Shown here: in pieces, positions 21-31,730 of the stretch
Numbering within the stretch: position 1 is the stretch's first letter
Layout of the letters: each line of letters starts with the position of its first letter
From: a virus
Reading direction: 5' to 3' (one strand)
DNA: 34,048 nucleotides
IMG/VR virus record: IMGVR_UViG_3300033048_000153
Coordinates: 1 to 34,048 of that record
Program-made: the position numbers and the translations under genes
Notes under the pieces: model-generated
What the model was told of the DNA's origin: nothing
What the model saw: the letters and a program-made list of their open reading frames with translations, nothing else
The model's database searches: none

Positions 21-1505
21 TCACACCCACGACGCTGGAGGTCTCACGAGTTCGACAGCACTCTTCCGTTGGGCGGAACGCACCTGGAGGCCGAGGAACT
101 CGGTGATGCGTTCGATCTCCTCTATCGGATCGGCCAGCAGATTGTGGTAACCCACGGGCAACACCCGCTCGTGCGGCACCATTTCAAGCCCCGCGACCTG
201 TGACTGCCACAAGGCTCGTTGCAACTGTTCGCATTGCTCTGGCGTCGCCCGGAGCCAGCCACGGGCTTTGGCGGAGCGATCCACGAGGGACCGGATCGAC
301 TCCTCGATTGGGCGGTCGATGTGGATGAAGCGACTCTCCGGTTCGAGTTCGAGAAGCAGGTTGATCATGAAACACAGGTGCGGGTACTTGCCGCCCATGA
401 TCGTTCCGCAGTGGGCGGCCTCTCGCTGGCGGGCGTCGATCCACCCACGGAGTCGCTCGCGCGTCACTTTGATCGGGACCGCCCGCTCGACGGATGGGAA
501 CGGATACGCCTGCTCGCAGATCTGGGCGAGGCCGTGGGCTTCGAAGCCGCCGGTGCCGTGGCCGTTGCGGTTTTCGTAGCCGTTGAGGCGGTTGCCCATG
601 TGGACGCCGAGGTGGTGGAGGATGCCTGCGGTGACCGAGGAGCCCGAGCGGTGCAGGCCGATGACCCAGACGGGAGGCTTGCGGCTCGGGCGGCCGGTGC
701 GGTTCCAGGCGTTCCAGTACCTGTCCTGCGTGATCCGACCACAGATGTCCGACCGACCACCGGCCTGGCCGATGATCCATTGAGTGGGTGCGTAGATGTT
801 GAACTCGCCGGACTTGTGGAGCAGCTCCATGCGGTGATCGACATGATGTCTCGGGTGGCGAGTGTGGTCGGGCCAGTCGCAGAGGTGCTGGTAGAGCGTG
901 CGGATGAACCTGCCGCGTGCGGCATACGCCTGCGTACGGTTGACCATGTGCGGGCGCACGACCTCGGCGTTGATGCGTTGGGGTGGTTTGGCGCGCAGGC
1001 CACGATGCTGGCCGCCGAGGTAGAGCTGGTCCCAGTCGGTTGGCAGCGATTCGAGGAACCGTGCGGTCCGTTCGTCGAAGTCGTCGGGGAACAGGGCATC
1101 GTCTTCGAGGACGAGCAGGACCTCGCCGCGTTGGTCCATGCCGTCCATGAGCGCCTGTTCGAGGATGCGGATATGGCTGAGCATGCATCCCCACGCGCCA
1201 CCGCCTTGTTTCCACCAGGTGGGAGGACGAACTCGTCGGCCGTCGATCGCGGGGAAGCGTTCGACGCCGGGCATAGGGCAAGCACGCTCGAACGCTTCCC
1301 ACCGGTCGGGCCTGCGGTCGAGGTTGATGCACTTGGCTAAGACAGATCCGCCGCCGGTCAGGCGCGACAGGAGATCGAGGACCGAGCCACCCGCACGCCC
1401 GGATTGAACAATCTGAACAGGGCGAACCGATCGGGGCTGGGTCTCCACCAGCGCTCGACGATCGCTCATCTCGCGTCGGAGTTCGTCGAGAGCGAGTGTT
1501 GTCAT
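21..1505 (-). CDS. GT25 glycosyltransferase-sulfotransferase fusion
   Basis: The 494-residue product has two catalytic parts. Residues about 55-270 look like glycosyltransferase family 25 (LPS-type), with NLDRRPDRW at 61-69 and an acidic LEDDALF motif near 133-139. Residues about 278-490 look like a sulfotransferase: GLHRSGSS near 283-290 fits the loop that binds the 5'-phosphosulfate of PAPS. It would therefore add a sugar and a sulfate to a glycan, probably in the cytoplasm. The ATG at 1505 is chosen because GAGGAGG lies just upstream and the ATG overlaps the previous stop as ATGA; a longer frame to 1604 would overlap that gene by 100 bp. It is the last gene of the coupled operon that starts with the Ser/Gly-rich Hint protein. 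The domain calls are made by motif; acceptor and sugar donor are unknown. Confidence 0.8.
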   Translation of the reverse strand: MTTLALDELRREMSDRRALVETQPRSVRPVQIVQSGRAGGSVLDLLSRLTGGGSVLAKCINLDRRPDRWEAFERACPMPGVERFPAIDGRRVRPPTWWKQGGGAWGCMLSHIRILEQALMDGMDQRGEVLLVLEDDALFPDDFDERTARFLESLPTDWDQLYLGGQHRGLRAKPPQRINAEVVRPHMVNRTQAYAARGRFIRTLYQHLCDWPDHTRHPRHHVDHRMELLHKSGEFNIYAPTQWIIGQAGGRSDICGRITQDRYWNAWNRTGRPSRKPPVWVIGLHRSGSSVTAGILHHLGVHMGNRLNGYENRNGHGTGGFEAHGLAQICEQAYPFPSVERAVPIKVTRERLRGWIDARQREAAHCGTIMGGKYPHLCFMINLLLELEPESRFIHIDRPIEESIRSLVDRSAKARGWLRATPEQCEQLQRALWQSQVAGLEMVPHERVLPVGYHNLLADPIEEIERITEFLGLQVRSAQRKSAVELVRPPASWV

Positions 1506-2203
1506 CGCTCGTCCTCCTCGGCCAAGGATGACGACAGCACCGCGTCGGTATCCACGCCGGTCTGTTCCCACAGGTCGCGGTGGCGGTGCATGCGGTGCTC
1601 GCACCAGGTCGCGTTGAACTGGTGGTCGGCCTTGAGCACGAGGTGCGCGCCGGGCGTCTGCCTCACCTCACGGACGCGCATCGTGAAGTAGTGCGGCGGG
1701 TAGAACACGATGTCGGGATACCTGAGTAGCACTCGCCGCACGAGCGTGGGACCGGCCTGATCCACGACGCGCCGATGCCGGAAGAAGGATTCATCGACGC
1801 TGACTACCGCCCGCCACATCGCGGGGTGGTTCGGCGGGAAGCCCATCGCCGCGTTGGAAACCCGATCGGCCTGCTCGCGTGCGATCCACGCGGGCACATC
1901 GCAGACCTCGTCCAAGGGCCGGACGGGACGGACATCGGTGTCGAGATAGACGCCGCCGAAGCGAGCAAGCAGTTCGAGGCGGAGGATGTCCGAACGGATC
2001 GCATGGCCCGTCGTGCCGGGCAGCGATCGCGCGATGTCCCACGCCCTGCGGTTGAGGATCGGCGGCAGTGTGTCATCGGTCCAGAGGCGACACTCCCAGT
2101 CGGGGTTCATGCGAATGAACCCATCACGCCAGCGGCTGTACTTCTCGGGCATCTGCGCCGGGCCGAGCCAGATCTGGTGGAGGATGCGCGGGATGGTTGT
2201 CAT
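1502..2203 (-). CDS. GT32-like DXD glycosyltransferase (copy 2)
   Basis: This 233-residue protein resembles the Gly_transf_sug/GT32 family (OCH1-like), which transfers a sugar from a nucleotide donor using a DXD motif. Visible signs are the start IPRILHQIWLG, the block RSDILRLELLARFGGVYLDTD (70-90) with the DTD metal site at 88-90, and the RPLDE that usually follows. It overlaps the upstream gene by ATGA at 2200-2203 and the downstream GT25-sulfotransferase by ATGA at 1502-1505, so all three are probably translated in sequence. It is a divergent paralogue of its upstream neighbour, suggesting two successive sugar additions or two acceptors. No signal peptide is seen. The sugar and acceptor cannot be read from the sequence. 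Confidence 0.85.
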   Translation of the reverse strand: MTTIPRILHQIWLGPAQMPEKYSRWRDGFIRMNPDWECRLWTDDTLPPILNRRAWDIARSLPGTTGHAIRSDILRLELLARFGGVYLDTDVRPVRPLDEVCDVPAWIAREQADRVSNAAMGFPPNHPAMWRAVVSVDESFFRHRRVVDQAGPTLVRRVLLRYPDIVFYPPHYFTMRVREVRQTPGAHLVLKADHQFNATWCEHRMHRHRDLWEQTGVDTDAVLSSSLAEEDER

Positions 2204-2844
2204 ACCGATTCCACTGAATCCACCGTCATTGACGAGTCGCTCTGGTATGCGTCAGCGACATACCCGAACGCGGCGTCACAGTCCTTCGCCTCGGCTTCGG
2301 GAAGGTTGAAGAGCGCCCAGTGGAAGGTGACCCACTGCCGGAAGTGGCCGTGCCCGTCGATCACGCGTGAGAGGAAGCCCGGCCCGGTCTGGTCCCACAC
2401 GCCGCGATAGGTTTCGATCGACCGTGGCAGGTCTCGGACCGCGTGCCACATGGCCGGGTGGTTGCGTTTGGCCCCGACGATGCTGCACGAGAGCTGGTGG
2501 GGTTGGCCGTCGCCGCCGGTCGTCGTGCAGAACCCGGAGACATTCTCGAGCAACTCATCGATCGGGCGTAGCGGGAGGTGGTCGTGGTCGATGAATACGC
2601 CGCCGAAGCGCGCGAGCACTTCGTAGCGGAGGATGTTCAGCCGTGAGACGGACGCGGCCGGTTCGTCGAGGCGGAAGGTCATCTCCCAGGCGTCGTTGTT
2701 GAGGACGACCGGGCGGTCGTCGAGCGTGAGCCGGACGAACTCCCACTCGGGGTGGTGCGCACGCCACGCCGCTTCGAGGTCGTCGGCGTGGTCGGGCGGG
2801 TCGCCCTGTTGCATAAACGCGGTGTAGATGACTCGTGGGATCAT
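2200..2844 (-). CDS. GT32-like DXD glycosyltransferase (copy 1)
   Basis: The 214-residue product has the same architecture as the next gene: an opening IPRVIYTAF, then SRLNILRYEVLARFGGVFI and DHD at 86-88 followed by LPLRPIDELL. This is the GT32-type FGGxxxDxD signature. Its ATG (2844) overlaps the stop of the Ser/Gly-rich Hint protein as ATGA at 2841-2844, making it part of the late structural transcript and probably translationally coupled to a virion protein. Such coupling implies that the enzyme is needed in step with that protein, or is a late-expressed host-surface modifier. The middle (residues 107-125, including CTTTGGDGQPH) differs from the paralogue, so the two may not have the same acceptor. 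Confidence 0.83.
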   Translation of the reverse strand: MIPRVIYTAFMQQGDPPDHADDLEAAWRAHHPEWEFVRLTLDDRPVVLNNDAWEMTFRLDEPAASVSRLNILRYEVLARFGGVFIDHDHLPLRPIDELLENVSGFCTTTGGDGQPHQLSCSIVGAKRNHPAMWHAVRDLPRSIETYRGVWDQTGPGFLSRVIDGHGHFRQWVTFHWALFNLPEAEAKDCDAAFGYVADAYQSDSSMTVDSVESV

Positions 2845-4496
2845 GGCGCCTCCGTGTTGCTCTGCCAGTCGGCGGGCGGCACGCCTTCGAGCCCGCCGGG
2901 GATGGCGGACCCGGCCTGCGTGCCCAGCGCGACCGCGTCGTTGGGTGTCTGCGATCCGGGACCCGGCGCATTGGCTGGCGGCATTGCTGGCGGGGTCGTC
3001 GAGCCGCTGCTGCTGTCGCTGCTGCCACTGCTGTCGCTGCCGCCACTGCTGTCGCTGCCGCCACTGGACCCCGAGCCGGAGCCGGATGAACTGTCGCTGC
3101 TGTCGAACGATGAGCCGCTGCTCTTGCCGGAGCCAGAGGGAGAGCCTGAACCAGAACCCGAGCCAGAACCCGAGCCGGAACCCGACGACCCGCCCGAGCC
3201 GGAACTGCCTGGAATGGACATGCTCGGACCACTGCCTCCGCCGCCACCGATGCCTCCCAACCCGCCTCCGATCCCGTCGTTGTGGACCCAGACGCCGTCG
3301 GCGGTGTAGGTGTTGGCGCCCGGCACGGCAAGCGCCACCGTGCGGACGTTGTGTTCCACGCGCACGACGGATTGCACCGGTTCCTCGGTCATGTCATGGC
3401 GGAGCAGCCGATCACCGATGCGCAGTCGGTCGGTTGAGCAGAACCCGAGACGCCCATCCCGTCGGATCAGGAACGGATGCTCGAAGGTGACTTTGATCCG
3501 CTCGTTGATGATGAAGAATCCGGCATGCTCGCCGAGGGTCACGCGGGCCACTGCGGCCGCGCGGGTGGTGATATCGGATGTGTCGGGATTGGCGAGCCAT
3601 TCGTACTGTGCGTGGTGTTCGGTGTCGCGTGCGAGGCCGGGGATTTCGAGCGAGTCGAGCGTGTCGCCGGGTGCGATGTCCTCGATCGGCTTGAGCGTTC
3701 CGTCGGCGAGGCGCACGAGCGTGCCGAAGAGGAAGCAGTTGCCACCGCCACCGGACCCTCCACCCGAGCCACCGCCGCCGCCTGATCCACCACCACCGCC
3801 GGAGCCGCCACCTGAACCGCCACCTGAGCCGCCGCCGGAACCACCCGATCCGCCGGAGCCACCTGATCCACTTCCATCGCTGCCGCTGTCCGAGCCGGAA
3901 TCCCCGCTCGAGGGACTGCCGAAGCTGCTCGATGAACATGGGAGCGCTTCGGTCGGGTTGCCGATGCGAACGATGGTCCAGGCGATTTCGGGTGTGTCCC
4001 GTTCGGACTTCGGTTGAACCCACAGCAAATATGCCGAGCCGGTCACGCGGCTTTGCAGGCGATCGAACAACTTCGCGGCCTCGGCGAACCGATCGCATTC
4101 ATCAACCATCTCCACGCGCACGGCCACCACGCCATCCACGACGGCCCGCCCGATTGTCCCGGCCAGCAAAGGCTCAAGCAACACCGCGAACCGACCAGTG
4201 GGCTCGTGCTCAGGCCTGACACCTTTGAATGTCACGCGATCCTCGAATACTTCGGCATTGTCGGTCGGTCGGATGAGCGGGCCTTGCATGCCGAGCACAT
4301 CGAAGCGCTGGCGATCGGCGCCGCTGTCATTACGGACGAGGACGATTCCGGTCTGGCGGAACTCGCGGCCAGCAGTTCCCATACCCTGCAACTCGCGCTG
4401 TCTCAGGTCACGCGCCGCGTCGATGAACGTGTTGAACGTCGCCGCCGGGATGACCAGCGGATCGCCGGTTCGCACTTTCTTGAAGGCATCGCCCAT
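2841..4496 (-). CDS. Ser/Gly-rich tail-region protein with Hint domain
   Basis: The 551-residue protein has four parts. Residues 1-180 are a globular N-terminal domain of unknown family. Residues about 188-253 are an almost pure Gly/Ser linker. Residues 254-406 are a Hint (hedgehog/intein) domain: it starts at Cys254 (CFLFGTLVRLADG), has the TxxH motif TFEH at 337-340 and ends in VHN at 404-406. Residues 407-551 form a second low-complexity tail with long Ser-Gly and Asp-Ser-Ser runs and a Pro-rich end. No homing endonuclease fits in the roughly 150-residue Hint. The residue after Asn406 is Asp, not Cys, Ser or Thr, as in B-type bacterial intein-like domains, so cleavage is more likely than splicing. 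CGGAGGATT sets the start. Its place after the tape-measure gene suggests a tail-tip or adhesion protein; this is inference. Confidence 0.8.
   Translation of the reverse strand: MGDAFKKVRTGDPLVIPAATFNTFIDAARDLRQRELQGMGTAGREFRQTGIVLVRNDSGADRQRFDVLGMQGPLIRPTDNAEVFEDRVTFKGVRPEHEPTGRFAVLLEPLLAGTIGRAVVDGVVAVRVEMVDECDRFAEAAKLFDRLQSRVTGSAYLLWVQPKSERDTPEIAWTIVRIGNPTEALPCSSSSFGSPSSGDSGSDSGSDGSGSGGSGGSGGSGGGSGGGSGGGSGGGGGSGGGGGSGGGSGGGGNCFLFGTLVRLADGTLKPIEDIAPGDTLDSLEIPGLARDTEHHAQYEWLANPDTSDITTRAAAVARVTLGEHAGFFIINERIKVTFEHPFLIRRDGRLGFCSTDRLRIGDRLLRHDMTEEPVQSVVRVEHNVRTVALAVPGANTYTADGVWVHNDGIGGGLGGIGGGGGSGPSMSIPGSSGSGGSSGSGSGSGSGSGSGSPSGSGKSSGSSFDSSDSSSGSGSGSSGGSDSSGGSDSSGSSDSSSGSTTPPAMPPANAPGPGSQTPNDAVALGTQAGSAIPGGLEGVPPADWQSNTEAP
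3279..3737 (-). other. Hint (bacterial intein-like) domain region
   Basis: These codons encode residues 254-406 of the Ser/Gly-rich protein. The sequence shows the intein block A cysteine (CFLFGT...PGDTL), a block B TxxH (TFEH), and a block G ending TADGVWVHN. Known Hint domains use Cys1 for an N-S acyl shift and the terminal Asn for cyclisation. Asp at +1 removes the nucleophile needed for standard splicing. Both flanks are flexible Gly/Ser runs, as expected for a protein that is cut or rearranged at this point. Confidence 0.8.
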
Positions 4497-4508
4497 GGAA
4501 TCCTCCGT

Positions 4509-5306
4509 TTAGATTCCAAGGGCCGTGAAGTTGCCGTAGCCGTAGACCTGCTCGACATAGGCCGAAGCGGGTTTCTTGACGAGCGCCTTGGCGGTGTCAT
4601 CCACCGCATCGACGTAGCGCACCCACAGATACTCCCAGCCTTTCTTGGCGATGCCGGTGATGTCGCCGACGGTGAGGTTGATCGCGTTGGGGCTCGCGGC
4701 GAAACGGAAACTGATCTCCCAGTCCGAGTCGCTGCGTTTGGAACCCGACGCGCCGAGGAACAGGCATTCACCGGCGGCAAAGCCCCGGAATACCGCTTCG
4801 TTCACCTTACCCGTCAGACTGAAGAGCACGCCCTTGTACTGCTCGGTGACCTGCGCGTCGGGCAGGTAGTGCGTCTCGGTGAAGTTGTAGACCGGGACGG
4901 CGACATCCACGCCCTCGACCGAGTCATTGGTCACGCCGATCGCGCCCTTGAAGTCCGGCGGCGTCTGGCCGGACGGCGCGTAGCTGCCGATGGTGGCCAG
5001 CGCTTGTGTGATGTGGCGCGTGCCGCCGCCGGTATCAAAGGAGAATGCCGATCCCCCAGTCGGCGGCGGCGACCCGCTCGACAGGCTGTACCGAACCGTC
5101 GCTTCCCAGTGCAGCTCGCCCACGGGTTCGATCGAGATGCTCTGTCGCGGCAGGTTGTCGTAGGTGTCGGGGCTGGCCCCATCGATCGCCGTCTTGACTT
5201 CAAGGTCATCGTTCGAGCCGCGCGCGGTGTAGACCAGATCGATCGAGGCGTTTGGCCCCGTGGTCGATGTGCGGCTCTCGAACTTTTCCTCTACGGTGAC
5301 AGGCAT
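4509..5306 (-). CDS. Tail-associated structural protein, unknown family
   Basis: I do not recognise a named family in this 265-residue product. It begins MPVTVEEKFESRTSTT, is rich in beta-prone stretches with many Tyr, Thr and Ser residues (EAVFRGFAAGECLFLGASG, WEISFRFAASPNAINL), and ends GYGNFTALGI. It has no signal peptide or membrane segment. The gene lies between the tape-measure gene (stop at 5325) and the Hint protein, where siphoviruses encode distal tail, hub or tip proteins; such a role is inferred from position only. GGAGGA upstream of 5306 supports the start. The later half (TVGDITGIAKKGWEYLWVRY) describes a compact domain that could pack in a ring. Confidence 0.7.
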   Translation of the reverse strand: MPVTVEEKFESRTSTTGPNASIDLVYTARGSNDDLEVKTAIDGASPDTYDNLPRQSISIEPVGELHWEATVRYSLSSGSPPPTGGSAFSFDTGGGTRHITQALATIGSYAPSGQTPPDFKGAIGVTNDSVEGVDVAVPVYNFTETHYLPDAQVTEQYKGVLFSLTGKVNEAVFRGFAAGECLFLGASGSKRSDSDWEISFRFAASPNAINLTVGDITGIAKKGWEYLWVRYVDAVDDTAKALVKKPASAYVEQVYGYGNFTALGI

Positions 5307-5324
5307 GGAGCGTTGGTCCTCCGA

Positions 5325-7676
5325 TCAGGTGAACGCGAGCCCGCCGTTGCGGGTGGCGCTGGCGATTCGTTTGGTGTGCTGGGCGGTCTCTTCGGTGGCC
5401 TTGGCGGTGCGTTCGTCGGCATCGCTCGAAGACGCCAGCCCTTGAATCGCCGCCGCATTGAATGTGCCGCGGACAGTTGCGCCAGAGCGGGCCAGGGCGC
5501 CACCGAGCCCGGCGAGCTGGATCTGGATGCGGGCGACGAGGTTCTCTGCGGAATCGGGTGCTCCAGCATCGGAACCGGCGCTCTCCACGTCCTTGCGTTT
5601 CTTCGCCGCCTCGGCAATGGCTTCGTCGAGCTGGCGTCGGGCTTCTTCGAGCGCCTTCTGCGTTTCTTCGATCTTGGTGTTCGTGCGGTCGTCGAGCTTC
5701 TTCTGGGCCTCGTCGAACTGTCGACCGATCTCGGCAAGCGTGGCCTCGTTCTCCTCGGCTGACCGGTCGCGCTGGCGTTGTCGGCTCTGTTCACGCTGAT
5801 CGAGTGTTTTTCGGGCCTGCGATTCGATTTCGCTGAGCCGTGATTCGAGTTGTTGGTCGATGCCTTGCTTGGCAGCCTTGACATCGAGCGATGAATCAAA
5901 CAACCCCTGAATCTCCAGCATCCGTTTGGCGACAAACGAGGTGGCCGTCTCCCAGATCTTCTTGAACCCGCTGGAGAACCGCGTCCAGGTCTTTGACAAG
6001 AACGAGGTCGTCTCGATCCATGCGACCTCGATCGCATGGAAGCCGATCTGGGCCGCCGCCACCGCCCCGAACCACATCTGCTGGGCGGTGGAGATGAAGA
6101 ACCGCTTGGCTTCGAGCCACACGCCGTTGATCGCGGCGACGCCCTTCTGCCAAGCGACTCTGATCGAGAGCCAGAGGATCTGGGCGGCGAGCGCAACATC
6201 ACCAGCCGCGAGCGCATCGGCCATCCCGCCGACGACTTTGGTCACGGTGGCTTTGAGCTTGTTGAACTGCTCGCCGAGCCATGACAACGCCTCGGCCCCG
6301 GCACCGCTCGTGATCAGGATCGCTGCGCCGACACCGACGACGGCTGCAACGACCAGCCCGATCGGCGAGAGCAACGCGGCAAGCACCGTGCCCATGATCC
6401 CGATCGCTGCGCCGACGCCGGTGATGATCGCGGCGAGCGAACCGAACACCACACCGATGGCCACGATCGCCACGCCAGCGATGACCAAGGCGATACCGAC
6501 CCCGATCACGACGGCCGTCAGTTTGAGGATCGTGACAACGAGCTGGCGATTCTGGTTGACCAGTTTCGTGATCCAGCCCGCGATCTTCGCCAATGCGTCG
6601 GCCGCTCGGCGGATGGGTTGTTCGATCGCCTCGCCGATCGCGATGGCGATGCCTTCGACCGCCGAGAGCAGCCGTCGGAACGCACCGCCGATACCCGCGT
6701 CCATCTCCTCGGCGGTCTTGACCGCGACCCCGGCGGACTTGCCGATCTGCTCTCGCAGATCGTCGAACGCCTCGGCAGACGACGCGAGCTTGAGCGCGGC
6801 CGCCTGGCCTCGCCCAAAGAGCGTCTCGAAGATGGACAGACGCTGGGCTGAACCCAGCCCTTTCGTCGCCTTGGCCAGGTCGTTGAGGATGTCGGCGAGC
6901 GGCCGCAGGTTCCCCTGAGCATCGACGGCTTCAACGCCGATCTTACGGAGCTCGGCTTGCCTGGATTCGTTGGCAAGGTTCTTGTACGCACGGGCCAGCG
7001 CGTTGCCCGCGAGCGAGCCCTTGATGCCGTTGTTGGCCAAGACGCCGATCGCGGCTGCGGTGTCCTCGATGCTTGCACCCGCTTCGACCGCGATCGGCGC
7101 GACGGGCTTGAGTGCCTCAAACAGATCGTCGAGTGTCTGGGCGCTCTTGTTCGCCGTCGCGGTGAGGACATCGGTCACGCGCCCCATCTGGCCAACCGGA
7201 AGATTGAATCCGCGCAAGGCCGCCCCTGCGATCTCGGTGGCTCGGGGGAGTTCCGTGCTGGTCGCGCGAGCGAGCGCCAACACGGCCTCGGTGCTGGTCA
7301 GGATCGCCTCGGGCTTGAACCCGGCTCGGCCCAGTTCGGTCATCGCCTCTGCGACCTGGCCCGCCGTGAACGAGGTCGTCCGACCAAGGCGTTTGGCTTC
7401 TTCACGCAGCGACTGGAACTGTGCTTCGGTCGCCCCCGTCACAGCCCGCACCTGACGCATCCGGTCATCGAACCCCGCAAACACACGCGTTGAGATGGCA
7501 AAGCCCGCCGCGAGACCGGTGCCGATGCCGGTCAGGCGTGCGCCGATCCGTTGCACGGACGACCCGAACGCCTTGAGCCGTTTCTGGGCGCGATTGAGAC
7601 CACGCACGAGCTTGTTGTCGTTGGCGTACAGCTCGATGTAAGCTGCTCCTGCCCGGATGCCGCGTGCGGATGCCAT
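5325..7676 (-). CDS. Phage tail tape measure protein (TP901 family)
   Basis: At 783 residues this fits a tape measure protein, which sets tail length and is ejected with the DNA. Residues about 65-340 match the TP901-type core: FDDRMRQVRAVTGATEAQF, LGRTTSFTAGQVAEAMTEL, GFNLPVGQMGRV and FETLFGRGQAAALKL. A long hydrophobic stretch follows (about 370-460, alternating Val/Ile/Ala/Gly), then helical segments and a charged coiled coil about 610-690 rich in Glu, Lys and Arg. CGGAGAT precedes the ATG at 7676. It comes after the tail chaperone and lipoprotein genes, the usual place except for the lipoprotein. Tail length would be roughly 110-120 nm if the common 1.5 angstrom per residue rule holds. 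Confidence 0.93.
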   Translation of the reverse strand: MASARGIRAGAAYIELYANDNKLVRGLNRAQKRLKAFGSSVQRIGARLTGIGTGLAAGFAISTRVFAGFDDRMRQVRAVTGATEAQFQSLREEAKRLGRTTSFTAGQVAEAMTELGRAGFKPEAILTSTEAVLALARATSTELPRATEIAGAALRGFNLPVGQMGRVTDVLTATANKSAQTLDDLFEALKPVAPIAVEAGASIEDTAAAIGVLANNGIKGSLAGNALARAYKNLANESRQAELRKIGVEAVDAQGNLRPLADILNDLAKATKGLGSAQRLSIFETLFGRGQAAALKLASSAEAFDDLREQIGKSAGVAVKTAEEMDAGIGGAFRRLLSAVEGIAIAIGEAIEQPIRRAADALAKIAGWITKLVNQNRQLVVTILKLTAVVIGVGIALVIAGVAIVAIGVVFGSLAAIITGVGAAIGIMGTVLAALLSPIGLVVAAVVGVGAAILITSGAGAEALSWLGEQFNKLKATVTKVVGGMADALAAGDVALAAQILWLSIRVAWQKGVAAINGVWLEAKRFFISTAQQMWFGAVAAAQIGFHAIEVAWIETTSFLSKTWTRFSSGFKKIWETATSFVAKRMLEIQGLFDSSLDVKAAKQGIDQQLESRLSEIESQARKTLDQREQSRQRQRDRSAEENEATLAEIGRQFDEAQKKLDDRTNTKIEETQKALEEARRQLDEAIAEAAKKRKDVESAGSDAGAPDSAENLVARIQIQLAGLGGALARSGATVRGTFNAAAIQGLASSSDADERTAKATEETAQHTKRIASATRNGGLAFT

Positions 7677-7688
7677 TGCGATCTCCGA

Positions 7689-8168
7689 TCAGGTGTTGAT
7701 GGTGCCGGATGACTGCGAAGGACCGGTCGGCGGAGCGACACGCCCTTCCTTCATCCCCTTGTTGAACGAGGATTCCTTCTCTTTGCGGAGTCGGCCCGTG
7801 CCGAGGAAGAGACCGACCAACCCGGTCATCGCAGGAAGTGCCGGGCCGAGCATGGGGATGCCCGCGACGGTCGGGCCGATCTGATCAAGTGCCGAGAGTG
7901 TGAGTTGGCTGAAGATGCCTCGGATCTCACTGGCCCGCTCGATGTTGGACTTCCACTGTGAGCCGGTGCGTTGAGTTTCTTCGAACCATGCGCGGTACTC
8001 GTTCTCGGCTTCGTTGAGCGAAGTCGTCGCGGGAAGCCCGGTCGATTGCTGGACGCGGTTGGGGGTCTTGACACGGACAAGATCACCGAGATCAAACCCG
8101 GAGCACGCGCCCAGTGCGAGGGTGATCATCACGAGTGCGAAGATGTATGCGTACTGTCTGGGTTGCAT
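7689..8168 (-). CDS. Prophage lipoprotein in the tail module
   Basis: The 159-residue product starts with a clear lipoprotein signal: MQPRQYAYIFALVMITLALGAC, with lipobox LGAC and Cys22 as the lipidated residue. The next residue is Ser, which in proteobacterial rules favours the outer membrane. A second hydrophobic, Gly/Pro-rich stretch (about 100-130, IPMLGPALPAMTGLVGLFLG) is followed by basic residues. AAGGAGG seven bases before the ATG at 8168 fixes the start; a longer open frame to 8375 only overlaps the chaperone gene. A lipoprotein between tail chaperone and tape measure is unusual. Known phage lipoproteins act in superinfection exclusion, receptor masking or outer-membrane disruption at lysis (spanins); any of these is possible. 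Family not recognised. Confidence 0.75.
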   Translation of the reverse strand: MQPRQYAYIFALVMITLALGACSGFDLGDLVRVKTPNRVQQSTGLPATTSLNEAENEYRAWFEETQRTGSQWKSNIERASEIRGIFSQLTLSALDQIGPTVAGIPMLGPALPAMTGLVGLFLGTGRLRKEKESSFNKGMKEGRVAPPTGPSQSSGTINT

Positions 8169-8482
8169 GGCTGCGCCTCCTTGCGCGTGGTGTTCTGGGG
8201 GTGTGCTTGCCTTCCGTCGATGAAGATGTCCTTGAGGATGCTCACATCGACCTTCTGCTTTGGTTTGTGCGTCTGGCTGAACGGGTCGAAGTCGGTCGGC
8301 CGGAACGCCCGGTGCTTCTTCGCGTCGCGGTTGGCGTTGGCGATCAGTGCCATGAGCGAGCTGGTCCGTGCCCACTCGTCGCGCTGCTTCGCCTCGGCCA
8401 TCGCGGCCAGTTCACGCAGGGTCAGGGCGGCTGGATCGACGCCGACGACACCGGCGAGTTGCCAGATGAACTGCCAGCACTC
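8129..8482 (-). CDS. Tail chaperone frameshift extension (T-like part)
   Basis: This frame encodes about 117 residues that look like the downstream domain of a G/GT-type tail chaperone: ECWQFIWQLAGVV, then LTLRELAAMAEAKQRDEW, SLMALIANANRD and FRPTDFDPF. No ATG, GTG or TTG start precedes the conserved part in this frame. The frame is -1 relative to the upstream chaperone gene. A GTG-GGG-A stretch at 8487-8481 would allow a tRNA on GGG to slip back one base with full pairing and enter GAG at 8482. The fused product would be about 263 residues. G/GT frameshift pairs are a known feature of long-tailed phages and guide tape-measure folding. The extension runs 40 bp into the lipoprotein gene. Confidence 0.7.
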   Translation of the reverse strand, partial: ECWQFIWQLAGVVGVDPAALTLRELAAMAEAKQRDEWARTSSLMALIANANRDAKKHRAFRPTDFDPFSQTHKPKQKVDVSILKDIFIDGRQAHPQNTTRKEAQPCNPDSTHTSSHS

Positions 8483-8919
8483 CCCACATGATCTTGCAGC
8501 GCTTCCTCCGCGATCCGATCCAGCTCGCCGCTCTCGATTCGTTGCTCGACCAGATCCCGCGCTTTGTCCATCACCCGCCGGGTCGTTTCGAGGACTCGTT
8601 TCAGATTCGCCCGGTCCCTCGGGCTCGGGGAAAAAGACACGAGTTCCTCGAGCAGGGCTGTCGTGGCGTGCTCGATCGCGTCGCCCGCCATCGCCCGTCC
8701 GAACTCCTCGTCGCTGACGCTCTGCGCATCCGCCTCCGGCTTGCACACGGCGTAGACGATGTCGCAGAGCAAGACCGGGTCGGTGATGAGCCGGTCGATC
8801 AGCTTGCCGCCGACGACTTCGAGCAGATCGACTTCGAGCAGGCCACGCACGCGCTTGATCGCGTCCACCGTGATGCTCACCGTCCAGGTCCGCCCCGCGT
8901 TGTCTTGGAATGTCTTCAT
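8422..8919 (-). CDS. Tail assembly chaperone (G-like, unshifted product)
   Basis: The 165-residue protein starts MKTFQDNAGRTWTVSITVDAIKRV at an ATG (8919) preceded by GGAGGAAT. It is mainly helical (VLLCDIVYAVCKPEADAQ, IEHATTALLEELVSF, RVMDKARDLVEQRIESGEL) and lies between tail tube and tape-measure genes, where tail chaperones are encoded. Beyond residue about 146 the unshifted frame turns into a Ser/Pro-rich tail (GSAGSSSGNSPVSSASIQPP) with no sign of conservation, while the -1 frame continues with conserved-looking sequence. This pattern suggests that most ribosomes end at 8422 and a minority make the longer G-T form. Open reading upstream of 8919 overlaps the tube gene and is not credible coding sequence. 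Confidence 0.82.
   Translation of the reverse strand: MKTFQDNAGRTWTVSITVDAIKRVRGLLEVDLLEVVGGKLIDRLITDPVLLCDIVYAVCKPEADAQSVSDEEFGRAMAGDAIEHATTALLEELVSFSPSPRDRANLKRVLETTRRVMDKARDLVEQRIESGELDRIAEEALQDHVGSAGSSSGNSPVSSASIQPP
8480..8489 (-). promoter_or_regulatory. Candidate -1 ribosomal frameshift site
   Basis: Read on the minus strand the bases are CAT GTG GGG AGT in the chaperone frame. The GGGG run at 8485-8482 lets the Gly codon re-pair one base back as GGG, after which reading continues GAG TGC TGG. The site sits exactly where conservation moves from one frame to the other. It is not a classic XXXYYYZ heptamer, so efficiency is uncertain. Confidence 0.5.
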
Positions 8920-8930
8920 GATTCCTCCAT

Positions 8931-9353
8931 TCAGATCCAGCTGGGCGCGGTGCCGTCGTAGGTGACCTTGGCGGTGATCGACACCGTGAGTGCTTCTTCG
9001 AGTTGCTCGCTTCGGCTGAAGTTGGTGATCGAGAAATCTGCTTCGAGCCCGGAGCCCACAGGCCCATCGAGCACCTGCAACCCGATCACGGCGTTGTTGA
9101 AGAATGCGTCTTTGATGGCCGTGAACCCCGCGTCGGCGGTATCCCACACCATCTCGAACTCGACGCTCGCCTCCTTGAGCGTGCCGACGGTTGCTCGCCA
9201 ACCCGCGTTGGCCCGCGTCGTGATGTCGGCCTCGCCGGTTTCGAGACTGAGCGTCACATCTTTGACATTGGCCAGTTCGGTCCATGAACCGGCCCCGCCG
9301 ACGCCTCCGGATTTGAAGTTGAGCACGGCGTCCATGCCGAGTTTGATGGCCAT
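8931..9353 (-). CDS. Major tail tube protein
   Basis: The 140-residue protein has the pattern of TP901-1-type siphovirus tail tube proteins: an early WTELANVKDVTLSLETGEADITTRANAGW stretch, a central VEFEMVWDTADAGFTAI, and a final beta-strand region LTVSITAKVTYDGTAP. These proteins polymerise into hexameric rings around the tape measure. GTAGGAGGCAAAGTC precedes the ATG at 9353, a strong ribosome site as expected for an abundant protein. The gene is between the neck genes and the tail chaperone, as in other long-tailed phages. Confidence 0.85.
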   Translation of the reverse strand: MAIKLGMDAVLNFKSGGVGGAGSWTELANVKDVTLSLETGEADITTRANAGWRATVGTLKEASVEFEMVWDTADAGFTAIKDAFFNNAVIGLQVLDGPVGSGLEADFSITNFSRSEQLEEALTVSITAKVTYDGTAPSWI

Positions 9354-9364
9354 GACTTTGCCTC

Positions 9365-9769
9365 CTACTTCACCGACCCGGCCCAGTGTTTGGGCAGGCG
9401 GCTTTGTGTCTTGGTCAGCGCCGGTCCCATGAACGGCCGCTTCGGGTATCGCTGCTTGCGGTAACGCCCGCCGAACTCGTGCGCTCGTGCCGATTGGCCG
9501 ACAATGCGGTAATCGGGGCCGATGACAACGCGTTGTCTGTTCTTCTCAACCGCAAACCGGATCGAACTGCGCAGTTGCCCGCGCCTAGTCTTGGGCGGTT
9601 TGCCCGGCTCGGCGGGGTTTGCACTCTTGCGGATGCTGCGTTTGGCGGTGAGCCGGATCGTCGCGCCCGCGTGCCCGAGGCTTTCGATGTTGGCCCGACG
9701 AACCTTGCGGAGCACCTTGGGGATGTCCGCACGGGTCTTGATCTGGAATCCAATGGCTGCACTGGTCAT
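9365..9769 (-). CDS. HK97 gp10-like minor tail/neck protein
   Basis: The 134-residue, strongly basic product resembles the HK97 gp10/Z-like family of head-tail connection proteins. It has an N-terminal helix-rich part with many Arg (RKVRRANIESLGHAG), then KPPKTRRGQLRSSIRF, a VVIGPDYR beta segment, and ARAHEFGGRYRKQRYPKRPFMGPAL. The HEFGG followed by RPFMGPAL is typical of that family. Its ATG overlaps the stop of the upstream gene as ATGA (9766-9769), part of a run of coupled genes. It probably sits at the tail-head junction. Confidence 0.8.
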   Translation of the reverse strand: MTSAAIGFQIKTRADIPKVLRKVRRANIESLGHAGATIRLTAKRSIRKSANPAEPGKPPKTRRGQLRSSIRFAVEKNRQRVVIGPDYRIVGQSARAHEFGGRYRKQRYPKRPFMGPALTKTQSRLPKHWAGSVK

Positions 9770-10194
9770 CGCATCACCCGAAATGTCAGCGTGATGATGC
9801 TGGTGAAGAGCCGCTTCTCGGTCAGGTGCTCGGGTGCAAAGACCGGCTCGGTAGCCACCTTGAGTACCGGCACGCTACCGACGCCATCGACCTGCACGCG
9901 CCCGAGCCGGAAGTGGTCGGCGATCTCCTCGGCCAGCGTCATCAACGCATCAGCCTCGGCATCATCCGCCACCTTCTGTTGCACACCGACATCGATGGCG
10001 TAATCGTGCTGGTTCTGATTCCGGCTCGACGCGAGGACTTCGATGCCCTTTGGCACAACCGACACATGCAGGTCAGTCATCTCGGGCAGATCGAACACGG
10101 GCTGGTAGTGCCGCACGGCGGCGAGTGCCTGACTGAATGATCCGGCATTGATCGATTCGACAACCGCGTCGGCGATGACGATAAGCACACTCAT
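9766..10194 (-). CDS. Tail terminator-like protein
   Basis: The 142-residue protein begins with VLIVIADAVVESINAGSF, then DLPEMTDLHVSVVPKG and HDYAIDVGVQQKV, and ends TEKRLFTSIITLTFRVMR. This alternation (N-terminal helix, central beta-sheet with VSVVP, final strand) fits phage tail terminator or tail-completion proteins, which cap the tube and join it to the head. Identification is by pattern and by position between the neck gene and the gp10-like gene. It starts at the ATGA overlap 10191-10194 and ends in the ATGA overlap 9766-9769. Confidence 0.72.
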   Translation of the reverse strand: MSVLIVIADAVVESINAGSFSQALAAVRHYQPVFDLPEMTDLHVSVVPKGIEVLASSRNQNQHDYAIDVGVQQKVADDAEADALMTLAEEIADHFRLGRVQVDGVGSVPVLKVATEPVFAPEHLTEKRLFTSIITLTFRVMR

Positions 10195-10457
10195 GGTTCA
10201 CCTCCGCCCGCGACATGTGGCCGACCGTTGAATCGCCCTTCGAGATACGACACGCGGCGTTCGATCGAGTAGAGGTCGTTGCGCAGACTGCGGATTTCCC
10301 CGGTGAGATCGGCGATACGGGATTCGATCTGGTCGAGTTTGGTCGTCACGACGCCCCACTGGACCGTGAGCGCCAACACCGCGATCGCGGCCGTGATGCC
10401 GACACCTGCCCAACGAGCCTTCGTGCCGTTCGTGTTGGTGGTTGCTTTCTCGGTCAT
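10191..10457 (-). CDS. Small membrane protein with coiled coil
   Basis: The 88-residue product has a short polar N-terminus, one transmembrane segment (about 17-36, VGITAAIAVLALTVQWGVV) and then a heptad-type coiled coil (TKLDQIESRIADLTGEIRSLRNDLYSIERRVSYLEGRF). It overlaps both neighbours by ATGA, in the middle of the neck genes. The shape, one N-terminal anchor with a periplasmic coiled coil, is that of an inner-membrane spanin, some holin-type proteins or a small assembly factor. No family is recognised. If it is a lysis protein, it is the only lysis candidate besides the lipoprotein in this window. Confidence 0.75.
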   Translation of the reverse strand: MTEKATTNTNGTKARWAGVGITAAIAVLALTVQWGVVTTKLDQIESRIADLTGEIRSLRNDLYSIERRVSYLEGRFNGRPHVAGGGEP

Positions 10458-10837
10458 GCGCCCTCCGTGGCGATGTGCTTGGTGTGGATGCGGAGTGCTT
10501 TGCGGTATGGGTCGCTGTAGCGGAACACGGGTTCATCACCGGGAGAGAGGACTTCGAAGACGAAGGTGGTGCTGCCGTCGGTCTCGCGGATCTGATCGCC
10601 CCGTTTGGGCAGCGTGGGTTGGCCGTCGAGCACGAGGTCGGCCGTGCGAATCAGGTAGTCCCGGCTCTCGGTCTTGGTGACGATGCCAAACTCGTCCGCC
10701 TGCTCGAACTCGGTTCGCCCGATCGTGGCCTGCACCTCAACCGTGCTCGCCCCACGCGCATACGACACCGATCGCGTCATGTGTTGGTGTCGCTGGTCGT
10801 CGAGCCAGCTCGCGCCTTGTTCGAGCATGTCCGCCAC
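10454..10837 (-). CDS. Head-tail connector (neck) protein
   Basis: The 127-residue product (MADMLEQGASWLDDQRHQHM...) resembles short head-closure or connector proteins located between capsid and tail genes. It contains VEVQATIGRTEFEQADEF, a DYLIRTADLVLDG strand region and LPKRGDQIRETDG, which is common in neck proteins. The frame starts with GTG at 10837, preceded by AAGGAAGGAACC; an ATG three codons later at 10828 is the alternative. The stop overlaps the next ATG (ATGA, 10454-10457). Function is inferred from position and overall pattern. Confidence 0.72.
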   Translation of the reverse strand: MADMLEQGASWLDDQRHQHMTRSVSYARGASTVEVQATIGRTEFEQADEFGIVTKTESRDYLIRTADLVLDGQPTLPKRGDQIRETDGSTTFVFEVLSPGDEPVFRYSDPYRKALRIHTKHIATEGA

Positions 10838-30362: not shown

Positions 30363-31730
30363 TCATCCCACCCGCCGCATGATCTCCGCCACCTTGCTCA
30401 TGTCCCGCTCGGCGTACACCGCGTCCGTCACCTGGGCCGATGAGTGCCCAAGTGCCAATTGAGCAGCCTCGAGCCCGAACGCCCGACGAATCTCCGTCGC
30501 GGCGTTGTGCCGCAACTGGTGCGGGTGCCAGCGGTGGGCTTTCTGCCACGCGGCGAGTTCGACCTGCTGCTTCGGCGTGAGCCGCTTCTTCCACGCTGCG
30601 ACCGTCTCGTCCTCCCGGCGTCCGAGCGGTGGGGGAGCCGGGAACGCTTTATCACACGCCCGCCGAATCGCGACATAGAAACTCGGCGTCGTGTATCGCT
30701 CACCCGCTGACCGCTTCGGGTCGATCTCGCGGTTTGTCCCAGCACGGTTCCCGCACGACATCGGCGTCACTCGGCCCGCGCTCAACGCCGCTCGGCGTTC
30801 CGCCTCCGCTTCGGCGGGGCTGAACAGATACGCCTCTGGATCACGCCCGTCGAGGAAGGGCTTCATCACATCCTGGGCGCTCGGCCCGAGCATGATCACG
30901 CGTTCGACGCCGCGAAACTGGTTCTTGTGCTCGACCGGTCGATAGACCCACACACTCGGCCCGTTGCCTTCGTCTTCGCGTTGCTCGATGTCGATCCCAC
31001 GCATGACCAGTAACTCGCCCGGCCTCGCACCGGTGAGCAGTTGAAGATCCACGACCGCCTCGATCTGTCGGTTCAGAAACGGCCGCACCGCGTCGATCCG
31101 TTCGATCGGCACCGGCAGCACCTTCTTGCCCTCTCGTGCCTTCGTCCGCCCGCGTTTGAGCGCCTCGACCGTGTCGAGTGTCTGGTGCACAGTCGCCGGG
31201 ATCAACTCCTGCGAGGCAGCCCAGCGGAACATCCGTCTGATCCGTTGAACATGCTGGTTGATGTACTTGCGTGACCACGCGGGCCTGGGCGGATCGGCGG
31301 CGGCGTCACCGGCAATCATCGCCTCGCGCAGCGCCCGCAACTTCCGAGGCCCGAACTCTTCCGCTGGTTCGCTGCCGTGGTATTGACGAAGCATGCGGAG
31401 GATGACCCGCAGCGTGCCCGACTCGTTGGGCTGGTAGTACCGCCGGGCCCACTTCCAGTACTCGGCGATGACCATCGCCACGGTTGGGCGACCGTCGTCT
31501 GGTGTCGGGTTGGCGCGACGGGCCGGGACGATGCCCGCTTCCTCGGGCTCGGGGTGTCGGCGATCGTTGGCTTCCCACGCGGCGATGATCCGGTGGTATC
31601 GCTCCCGGCTCTCGGGTGTGTTGTACTCGCCGAGCCAGTAATCGCGGCGGTGTTTGGTCGCACGATCCGTGAGTGTGACGATGGCCTGGTCATATCCAGA
31701 CCGCTTCCGATACGAGGGTGTTTTGGGCAT
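30363..31730 (-). CDS. int: Tyrosine-type phage integrase
   Basis: The 455-residue product is a tyrosine recombinase. The catalytic residues are visible: Arg236 in LLTGARPGEL, HxxR in HPHQLRH (His404, Arg407), His429 in LALGHSS and the nucleophile Tyr439 in DAVYAERD. An N-terminal core-binding region includes AEYWKWARRYY and KYINQHVQRIRRMFRWA. A segment about 340-400 between the Arg and HxxR boxes is longer than usual, as in planctomycete phage integrases. Its 5' end is 117 bp from the 3' end of a tRNA-Gly, the usual attachment target. GGGAGGC precedes the ATG. Confidence 0.94.
   Translation of the reverse strand: MPKTPSYRKRSGYDQAIVTLTDRATKHRRDYWLGEYNTPESRERYHRIIAAWEANDRRHPEPEEAGIVPARRANPTPDDGRPTVAMVIAEYWKWARRYYQPNESGTLRVILRMLRQYHGSEPAEEFGPRKLRALREAMIAGDAAADPPRPAWSRKYINQHVQRIRRMFRWAASQELIPATVHQTLDTVEALKRGRTKAREGKKVLPVPIERIDAVRPFLNRQIEAVVDLQLLTGARPGELLVMRGIDIEQREDEGNGPSVWVYRPVEHKNQFRGVERVIMLGPSAQDVMKPFLDGRDPEAYLFSPAEAEAERRAALSAGRVTPMSCGNRAGTNREIDPKRSAGERYTTPSFYVAIRRACDKAFPAPPPLGRREDETVAAWKKRLTPKQQVELAAWQKAHRWHPHQLRHNAATEIRRAFGLEAAQLALGHSSAQVTDAVYAERDMSKVAEIMRRVG

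Follow-up and report, generated by a model that had tools for sequence, protein, structure and literature searches.

The window analyzed here, 34,048 bases long, covers an entire IMG/VR record and represents a prophage with a GAPDH gene at its right end. Its late operon lies on the minus strand and comprises terminase, portal, protease/capsid and tail genes, the tape measure, a gene for a 265-residue protein and, last, four cassette genes. The locus is the end of the late (virion) operon in a prophage lineage of Planctomycetes, with the following features:

30363-31730: integrase
5325-7676, minus strand: tail tape-measure protein (phrog_1533, 3e-93)
4509-5306, minus strand: conserved tail-region gene, 265 aa, used as survey bait (351 viral and 201 genome stretches)
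2841-4496, minus strand: P0001, Ser/Gly-rich, Hint-containing, fibre-like putative virion protein, 551 aa
3942-4496, minus strand: N-terminal base domain of P0001, residues 1-185 (61-row alignment; AF2 pLDDT 85.8; Foldseek)
3738-3941, minus strand: Ser/Gly stalk or linker, residues 186-253
3279-3737, minus strand: Hint domain, apparently of the A-type BIL kind, residues 254-406 (Cys254, TFEH, VHN with Asp at +1)
2844-3278, minus strand: Ser/Gly-rich C-terminal tail, residues 407-551
3105-3125, minus strand: conserved lysine motif KSSGSSF (K458) in the Ser/Gly tail
2862-2897, minus strand: C-terminal peptide GGLEGVPPADWQ, seen only where a GT32 pair lies downstream
2200-2844, minus strand: P0002, GT32-type glycosyltransferase A, 214 aa, DHD (PF04488, 1.6e-6; ATGA overlap)
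1502-2203, minus strand: P0003, GT32-type glycosyltransferase B, 233 aa, DTD (PF04488, 3.1e-9; ATGA overlap)
21-1505, minus strand: P0004, GT25-sulfotransferase fusion, 494 aa from ATG (PF13469, 1.5e-17; PF01755, 6.5e-5; EDD, GLHRSGSS, HIDRPxxESI)

Coordinates, Pfam profiles and motifs bear out the earlier sequence-only reading of these four genes as a Ser/Gly-rich Hint protein, two GT32-type enzymes and a GT25-sulfotransferase joined by three ATGA overlaps, each of 4 nt. The overlaps are not something special, as -4 nt overlaps are common in the window's late operon, with three more at 9365-10837. For P0004, the ATG at 1505 is the simplest start and the longer GTG open reading frame to 1604 is unnecessary. 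Transmembrane segments are absent from all four cassette proteins.

Ser and Gly make up 33% of P0001, which contains 35 SG dipeptides compared to 14.5 ± 3.2 after shuffling of its residues. Every one of the six Ser and four Gly codons occurs, indicating that this composition is set at the protein level and arguing against a DNA tandem repeat, an explanation that we rejected. The window's linker is mainly Gly, one part being pure Gly. A likeness to the Ser-Gly attachment sites of animal proteoglycans, drawn from sequence alone, proved only verbal: the enzymes of these cassettes are GT32, GT25, GT42-like or GT2/GT4, with no xylosyltransferase and no evident SG attachment-site rule, and Pfam found no member of the animal GAG-initiation xylosyltransferase family among the four cassette genes.

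In Foldseek searches of the PDB with the base-domain model, the top 15 matches are all phage capsid-decoration, head-fibre or portal-capsid proteins, each of them weak (E 0.016-0.27), and the matches to phi29 gp8.5 and decoration proteins have TM-scores of only 0.4-0.6. The viral library gave 15 matches with E<1e-3, including phage proteins with collagen repeats. Three surveyed loci (L066, L027 and L192) have a further C-terminal domain in common behind collagen-like or Ser-rich regions, a base-stalk-tip layout. Fold and gene position thus provide moderate support for a virion location of P0001 as a fibre/decoration-type protein, a better name than the generic tail-region protein first suggested. 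P0001 resembles phi29 gp8.5 and decoration proteins in its predicted base fold with a stalk behind it (collagen-like in L066), but has no detectable sequence similarity to gp8.5, and its stalk is Ser/Gly with a Hint domain. Neither the base domain nor the 265-aa bait has a match among 50,697 annotated phage records, and AF2 and Foldseek gave no usable match for the bait (4509-5306).

Pfam recognizes the embedded Hint domain only below threshold (PT-HINT, 1.9e-4); a 29-row profile secured it, with the bacterial intein-like domain PDB 2LWY as its best solved relative (1.1e-7). Across the 29 aligned relatives, Cys1, T-x-E-H and the terminal His are invariant and the adjoining Asn is present in nearly all, while the +1 residue is Asp in 55 of 63 readable relatives, as in the window, where HN is followed by D. 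By its Hint fold, terminal His-Asn and non-nucleophilic +1 residue, the domain appears closest to A-type bacterial intein-like (BIL) domains, which undergo cleavage at each end and, even with no nucleophile at +1, are capable of ligation (PMC4031507). BIL domains sit within hypervariable regions (PMC7765530); that of the window differs from A-type BILs in its setting, a putative virion protein rich in Ser/Gly whose tail has a conserved Lys motif and whose gene is linked to those of glycosyltransferases. In relatives, the tail behind the Hint domain is almost Ser/Gly alone with one conserved lysine, set in K[SHGED]SGSS in the listed tails, and a cross-linking role for this residue is conjecture. 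Applied to 11 host genomes, the Hint profile gave ~25 matches, and all those placed are in phage cassettes.

P0002 and P0003 score above the PF04488 cut-off and retain the DXD motif. The GT25 part of P0004 reaches 23.3 bits with Glyco_transf_25 against a cut-off of 24, and has a PHROG glucosyltransferase match (3e-10). Its Sulfotransfer_3 part carries the phosphosulfate-binding loops GLHRSGSS and HIDRPxxESI; profile and loops together predict a PAPS-dependent sulfotransferase, and the conserved PAPS-type P-loop of this one fused domain makes sulfation probable. The fused domain is missing from most relatives of the cassette. Nearly all full-length relatives keep the DXD/DHD, EDD and P-loop (GLHRSGSS) motifs, and one copy of the fusion (L119, 13548-15095) is broken into several frames by decay or sequencing error. 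Among the 50,697 phage records, GT32-A has no match and P0004 only weak ones (~26-33% identity, uncultured large phages). An NCBIfam search gave nothing useful, and a toxin-related reading of weak GT-A matches was not adopted.

The neighborhood is not a one-off. We surveyed related loci with the 265-aa tail gene as bait, so that loci were not picked for having glycosyltransferases, and kept the best 80 matches from viral contigs and the best 80 from genome contigs; the genome matches are nearly all from Phycisphaerales or other Planctomycetota. The base domain is present in 153 of the 160 loci, normally in the next gene. In the commonest order, the base protein is followed by a SAM methyltransferase, a sialyltransferase-like glycosyltransferase (PHROG 4603) and a separate Ser/Gly-Hint protein, with or without the GT32 pair, whereas in the window-type order one protein combines base, Hint and Ser/Gly stalk, with the GT25-sulfotransferase downstream. 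All 67 Hint-bearing loci have transferases, 57 of them the SAM methyltransferase and sialyltransferase-like enzyme (PHROG 4603, 7e-10) and 10 the GT25-sulfotransferase. In relatives, the genes for base and Ser/Gly protein are separated by a 360-aa gene that PHROGs recognize and Pfam misses. The sialyltransferase-like gene is always paired with the SAM methyltransferase (L132 3800-4714 and L110 2472-3080, with relatives in 80 and 82 loci); the pair stands in front of the Ser/Gly-Hint protein, is absent from the window and probably does most of the modifying in this phage lineage.

Co-occurrence was counted in the 93 loci with at least 4.5 kb downstream, of which 66 have a Ser/Gly stalk and 27 do not. 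Glycosyltransferases adjoin the stalk in 66/66, the opposite of loci in which transferases are never beside the Ser/Gly protein, an outcome that would have spoken against the sequence-only reading. Profiles identify them in 63; the other three have GT4 and GT2 (L021) or radical SAM and GT2 (L105, L106). Among the assignable proteins of the 27 loci without such a stalk (Pfam, 105 downstream proteins), glycosyltransferases occur only at L066 and L073, whose base proteins contain collagen-like repeats and a Gly/Tyr-rich insert, respectively. Repeat-bearing base proteins therefore come with glycosyltransferases and plain ones without. The Fisher value for the stalk-glycosyltransferase association (2e-20) is not a significance, as the loci are related. 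On the bait-protein tree, stalk and enzyme traits change five times each, always together, and three of these five joint changes are on well-supported branches (sign test p 0.25, a test that cannot reach significance with only three well-supported independent pairs). The enzyme sets themselves (GT42-like with methyltransferase, GT32 pair, GT25-sulfotransferase, GT2/GT4) are swapped among loci, with at least 11 changes on the same tree.

The GT25-sulfotransferase is also found behind Ser-rich stalks that lack a Hint domain (L165, L191, L192 and L194), which argues that the enzymes track the stalk and led us to reject their dependence on the Hint domain. In the 11 host genomes, every copy in intact context (L191, L192, L194, L195, L198, L199 and L200) immediately follows a base protein with Ser/Gly, two partial copies are at contig ends, and a divergent one (L193) is in a different prophage-like region. 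In this last case (4288-10557), capsule-synthesis, GT25 and sulfotransferase domains are fused beside a pyruvyl transferase and a thioesterase-like gene.

P0001 ends in GGLEGVPPADWQ-SNTEAP. A 12-residue peptide of consensus GG[MLV]EGVPPAxWQ also ends the Ser/Gly proteins of L011, L022, L038, L101, L151, L155 (with one substitution), L158, L159, L161 and L163, with GT32 directly downstream in all; those of L025 and L033 end in it as well, where the contigs stop. No other complete Ser/Gly protein of the bait loci contains it, and L098, L027 and L165 have GT32-like genes without it. A degenerate DNA search of a 2.9-million-contig viral collection recovered 19 stretches, all 19 at the C-terminus of a Ser/Gly-rich open reading frame, and wherever the contig continues (15/15) GT32-A follows, overlapping the stop. 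The peptide is constant while its synonymous codons and the residues up to the stop vary; conservation of this kind, seen in the protein and not the DNA, suggests a role, docking for example. The pairing could partly be explained by physical linkage, as the peptide is at the end of the gene abutting GT32. Four IMG/VR records (L174, L182, L184 and L185) end exactly at the Ser/Gly gene's stop codon, where GT32 would begin, suggesting that trimming of proviruses takes the transferases for host genes and removes them.

The explanation that we favor, and hold to be reasonably probable, is phage-encoded glycosylation of the virion fibre stalk, with probable sulfation in the window. It draws on the transferases at 67/67 Hint loci and 66/66 Ser/Gly loci, the joint changes of stalk and enzyme traits, the peptide that is always followed by GT32-A despite varying synonymous codons, and a base like those of head fibres and decoration proteins in a set without transmembrane segments. 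The sequence-only reading had already proposed that the phage may glycosylate and sulfate its own Ser-rich protein; co-occurrence now partly supports that proposal, within which the acceptor, glycan and sulfation are what we infer. In the order of steps envisaged, P0001 would be a virion fibre or decoration protein whose base domain docks on the particle and whose Ser/Gly-rich stalk carries an autoprocessing Hint domain. Before assembly, soluble enzymes translated beside it would add sugars to the stalk serines in the cytosol: GT32-A, which the C-terminal GGxEGVPPAxWQ peptide possibly recruits, would start or extend a glycan together with GT32-B, and the GT25-sulfotransferase would extend and sulfate it. 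The Hint domain may cleave, or re-ligate its flanks as A-type BILs can, so that the Ser-rich tail is trimmed or attached. A more elaborate, proteoglycan-like coat, with the peptide as an exchangeable docking tag for the GT32 pair, a sulfate-capped glycan and a BIL thioester that ligates stalk to base or cross-links copies via the KxSGSS lysine, is speculative and seems quite unlikely.

Stalk glycosylation is weakened by the shared ancestry of the loci (three strongly supported independent pairs, five on the best tree), the weak PDB matches (best E 0.016), the mainly Gly linker of the window and the chance that the peptide travels with the abutting GT32. It is further weakened by the L193 fusion to a capsule-synthesis domain beside a pyruvyl transferase, and by the frequent position of the cassette near recombinases or the prophage end, a usual site of host-altering cargo too. 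These last two points, together with the classing of phage GT25-like genes as morons in PHROGs, favor the main rival, lysogenic-conversion cargo that modifies host surface glycans (superinfection exclusion, receptor change) and merely adjoins the last virion gene. Such host-surface modification, raised from the sequence alone as the alternative, lost ground because glycosyltransferases accompany the Ser/Gly stalk and 25 plain relatives lack them; translational coupling to a virion gene, the C-terminal peptide linked to GT32, and four genes without a membrane protein or flippase also speak against it, and we regard it as unlikely. A gtr-type serotype-conversion system (flippase, membrane-bound GtrB) was not found among the four proteins, none of which has a transmembrane segment, in a window that starts at position 1.

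Distinctly improbable is a different glycosylation target among the virion proteins (tail tube, capsid), with the Ser/Gly stretches serving the Hint domain as nothing more than flexible linkers on either side. The pure-Gly part of the P0001 linker, the occurrence of BIL domains in hypervariable regions and the capsid and tail-tube targets of known phage virion glycosylation (PMC12363180) would fit such a target, but the GT25-sulfotransferase behind Hint-less Ser-rich stalks does not, and plain relatives have tail genes without glycosyltransferases. Association without function, in which recombination at the operon end spreads the Ser/Gly-Hint-glycosyltransferase block as one unit and co-occurrence is hitchhiking, agrees with enzyme and peptide blocks that are swapped together and with few independent changes on the bait tree, but is very improbable given the repeated enzyme-set changes with never a stalk lacking a glycosyltransferase, largely intact catalytic motifs and a peptide kept while its codons and flanking residues vary.

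Phage-encoded virion glycosylation and bacterial Ser-repeat proteins with their own glycosyltransferases are already known. Mycobacteriophages Che8, Corndog and Myrna glycosylate capsid and tail tube (Freeman et al. 2023, as related in PMC12363180); they likewise encode glycosyltransferases, although modification of the particle is known for them and proposed for the phages studied here. Those are actinobacterial phages with capsid and tail-tube targets, whereas the planctomycete cassette has a dedicated Ser/Gly stalk protein, swappable glycosyltransferase sets, a fused sulfotransferase, a BIL domain and a peptide tied to one glycosyltransferase. Dedicated Ser-repeat glycosylation in bacteria is exemplified by SRRPs with GtfA/GtfB (PMC6973325) and SDR proteins with SdgA/SdgB (PMC3794999), in which, as here, a low-complexity Ser-rich acceptor (putative in our case) is encoded next to the cytosolic glycosyltransferases dedicated to it, and strains differ in how many and which of these they have. 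Unlike the putative virion protein P0001, SRRP and SDR proteins are cell-surface adhesins, modified by other glycosyltransferase families with no Hint domain and no sulfotransferase. Neither a GtfA/GtfB pair nor SecA2/SecY2 was found, the window having PF04488, PF01755 and PF13469 and other sampled cassette genes being GT42-like, GT2 or GT4. New here are the lineage, the swappable enzyme sets, the fused sulfotransferase, the intein-like domain and the glycosyltransferase-linked peptide. If stalk glycosylation holds, Planctomycetes prophages would keep a modular gene set for coating a virion fibre with sugar and, in some of them, for sulfating it, and the few mycobacteriophage examples on record would be joined by a lineage that has no match among the 50,697 phage records. 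The pairing of peptide and GT32 would then be a code, written in the genes, by which an enzyme recognizes its acceptor, and the arrangement of BIL domain and lysine would provide BIL domains with a concrete biological role.

Other features of the surveyed loci include a family of ~960-aa cysteine-rich proteins (L121 12844-15762 and relatives) that occupies the same position in 11 loci, none of the surveyed ones with a Ser/Gly stalk. Several copies of the bait-type prophage are found per chromosome in the genomes of L111 and L134, with five or six Hint matches in each, and in CP087563 (the L143 genome), with at least five bait matches. Four loci (L056 10823-13052, L119 10823-13058, L124 10823-13073 and L127 10812-13010) encode two consecutive Hint proteins between which the base domain is seemingly split: the first ends its base near residue 150, before its Hint domain, and the second starts with the final base strands that the first lacks and then has a linker and Hint domain of its own, an arrangement that could need ligation or fragment complementation.
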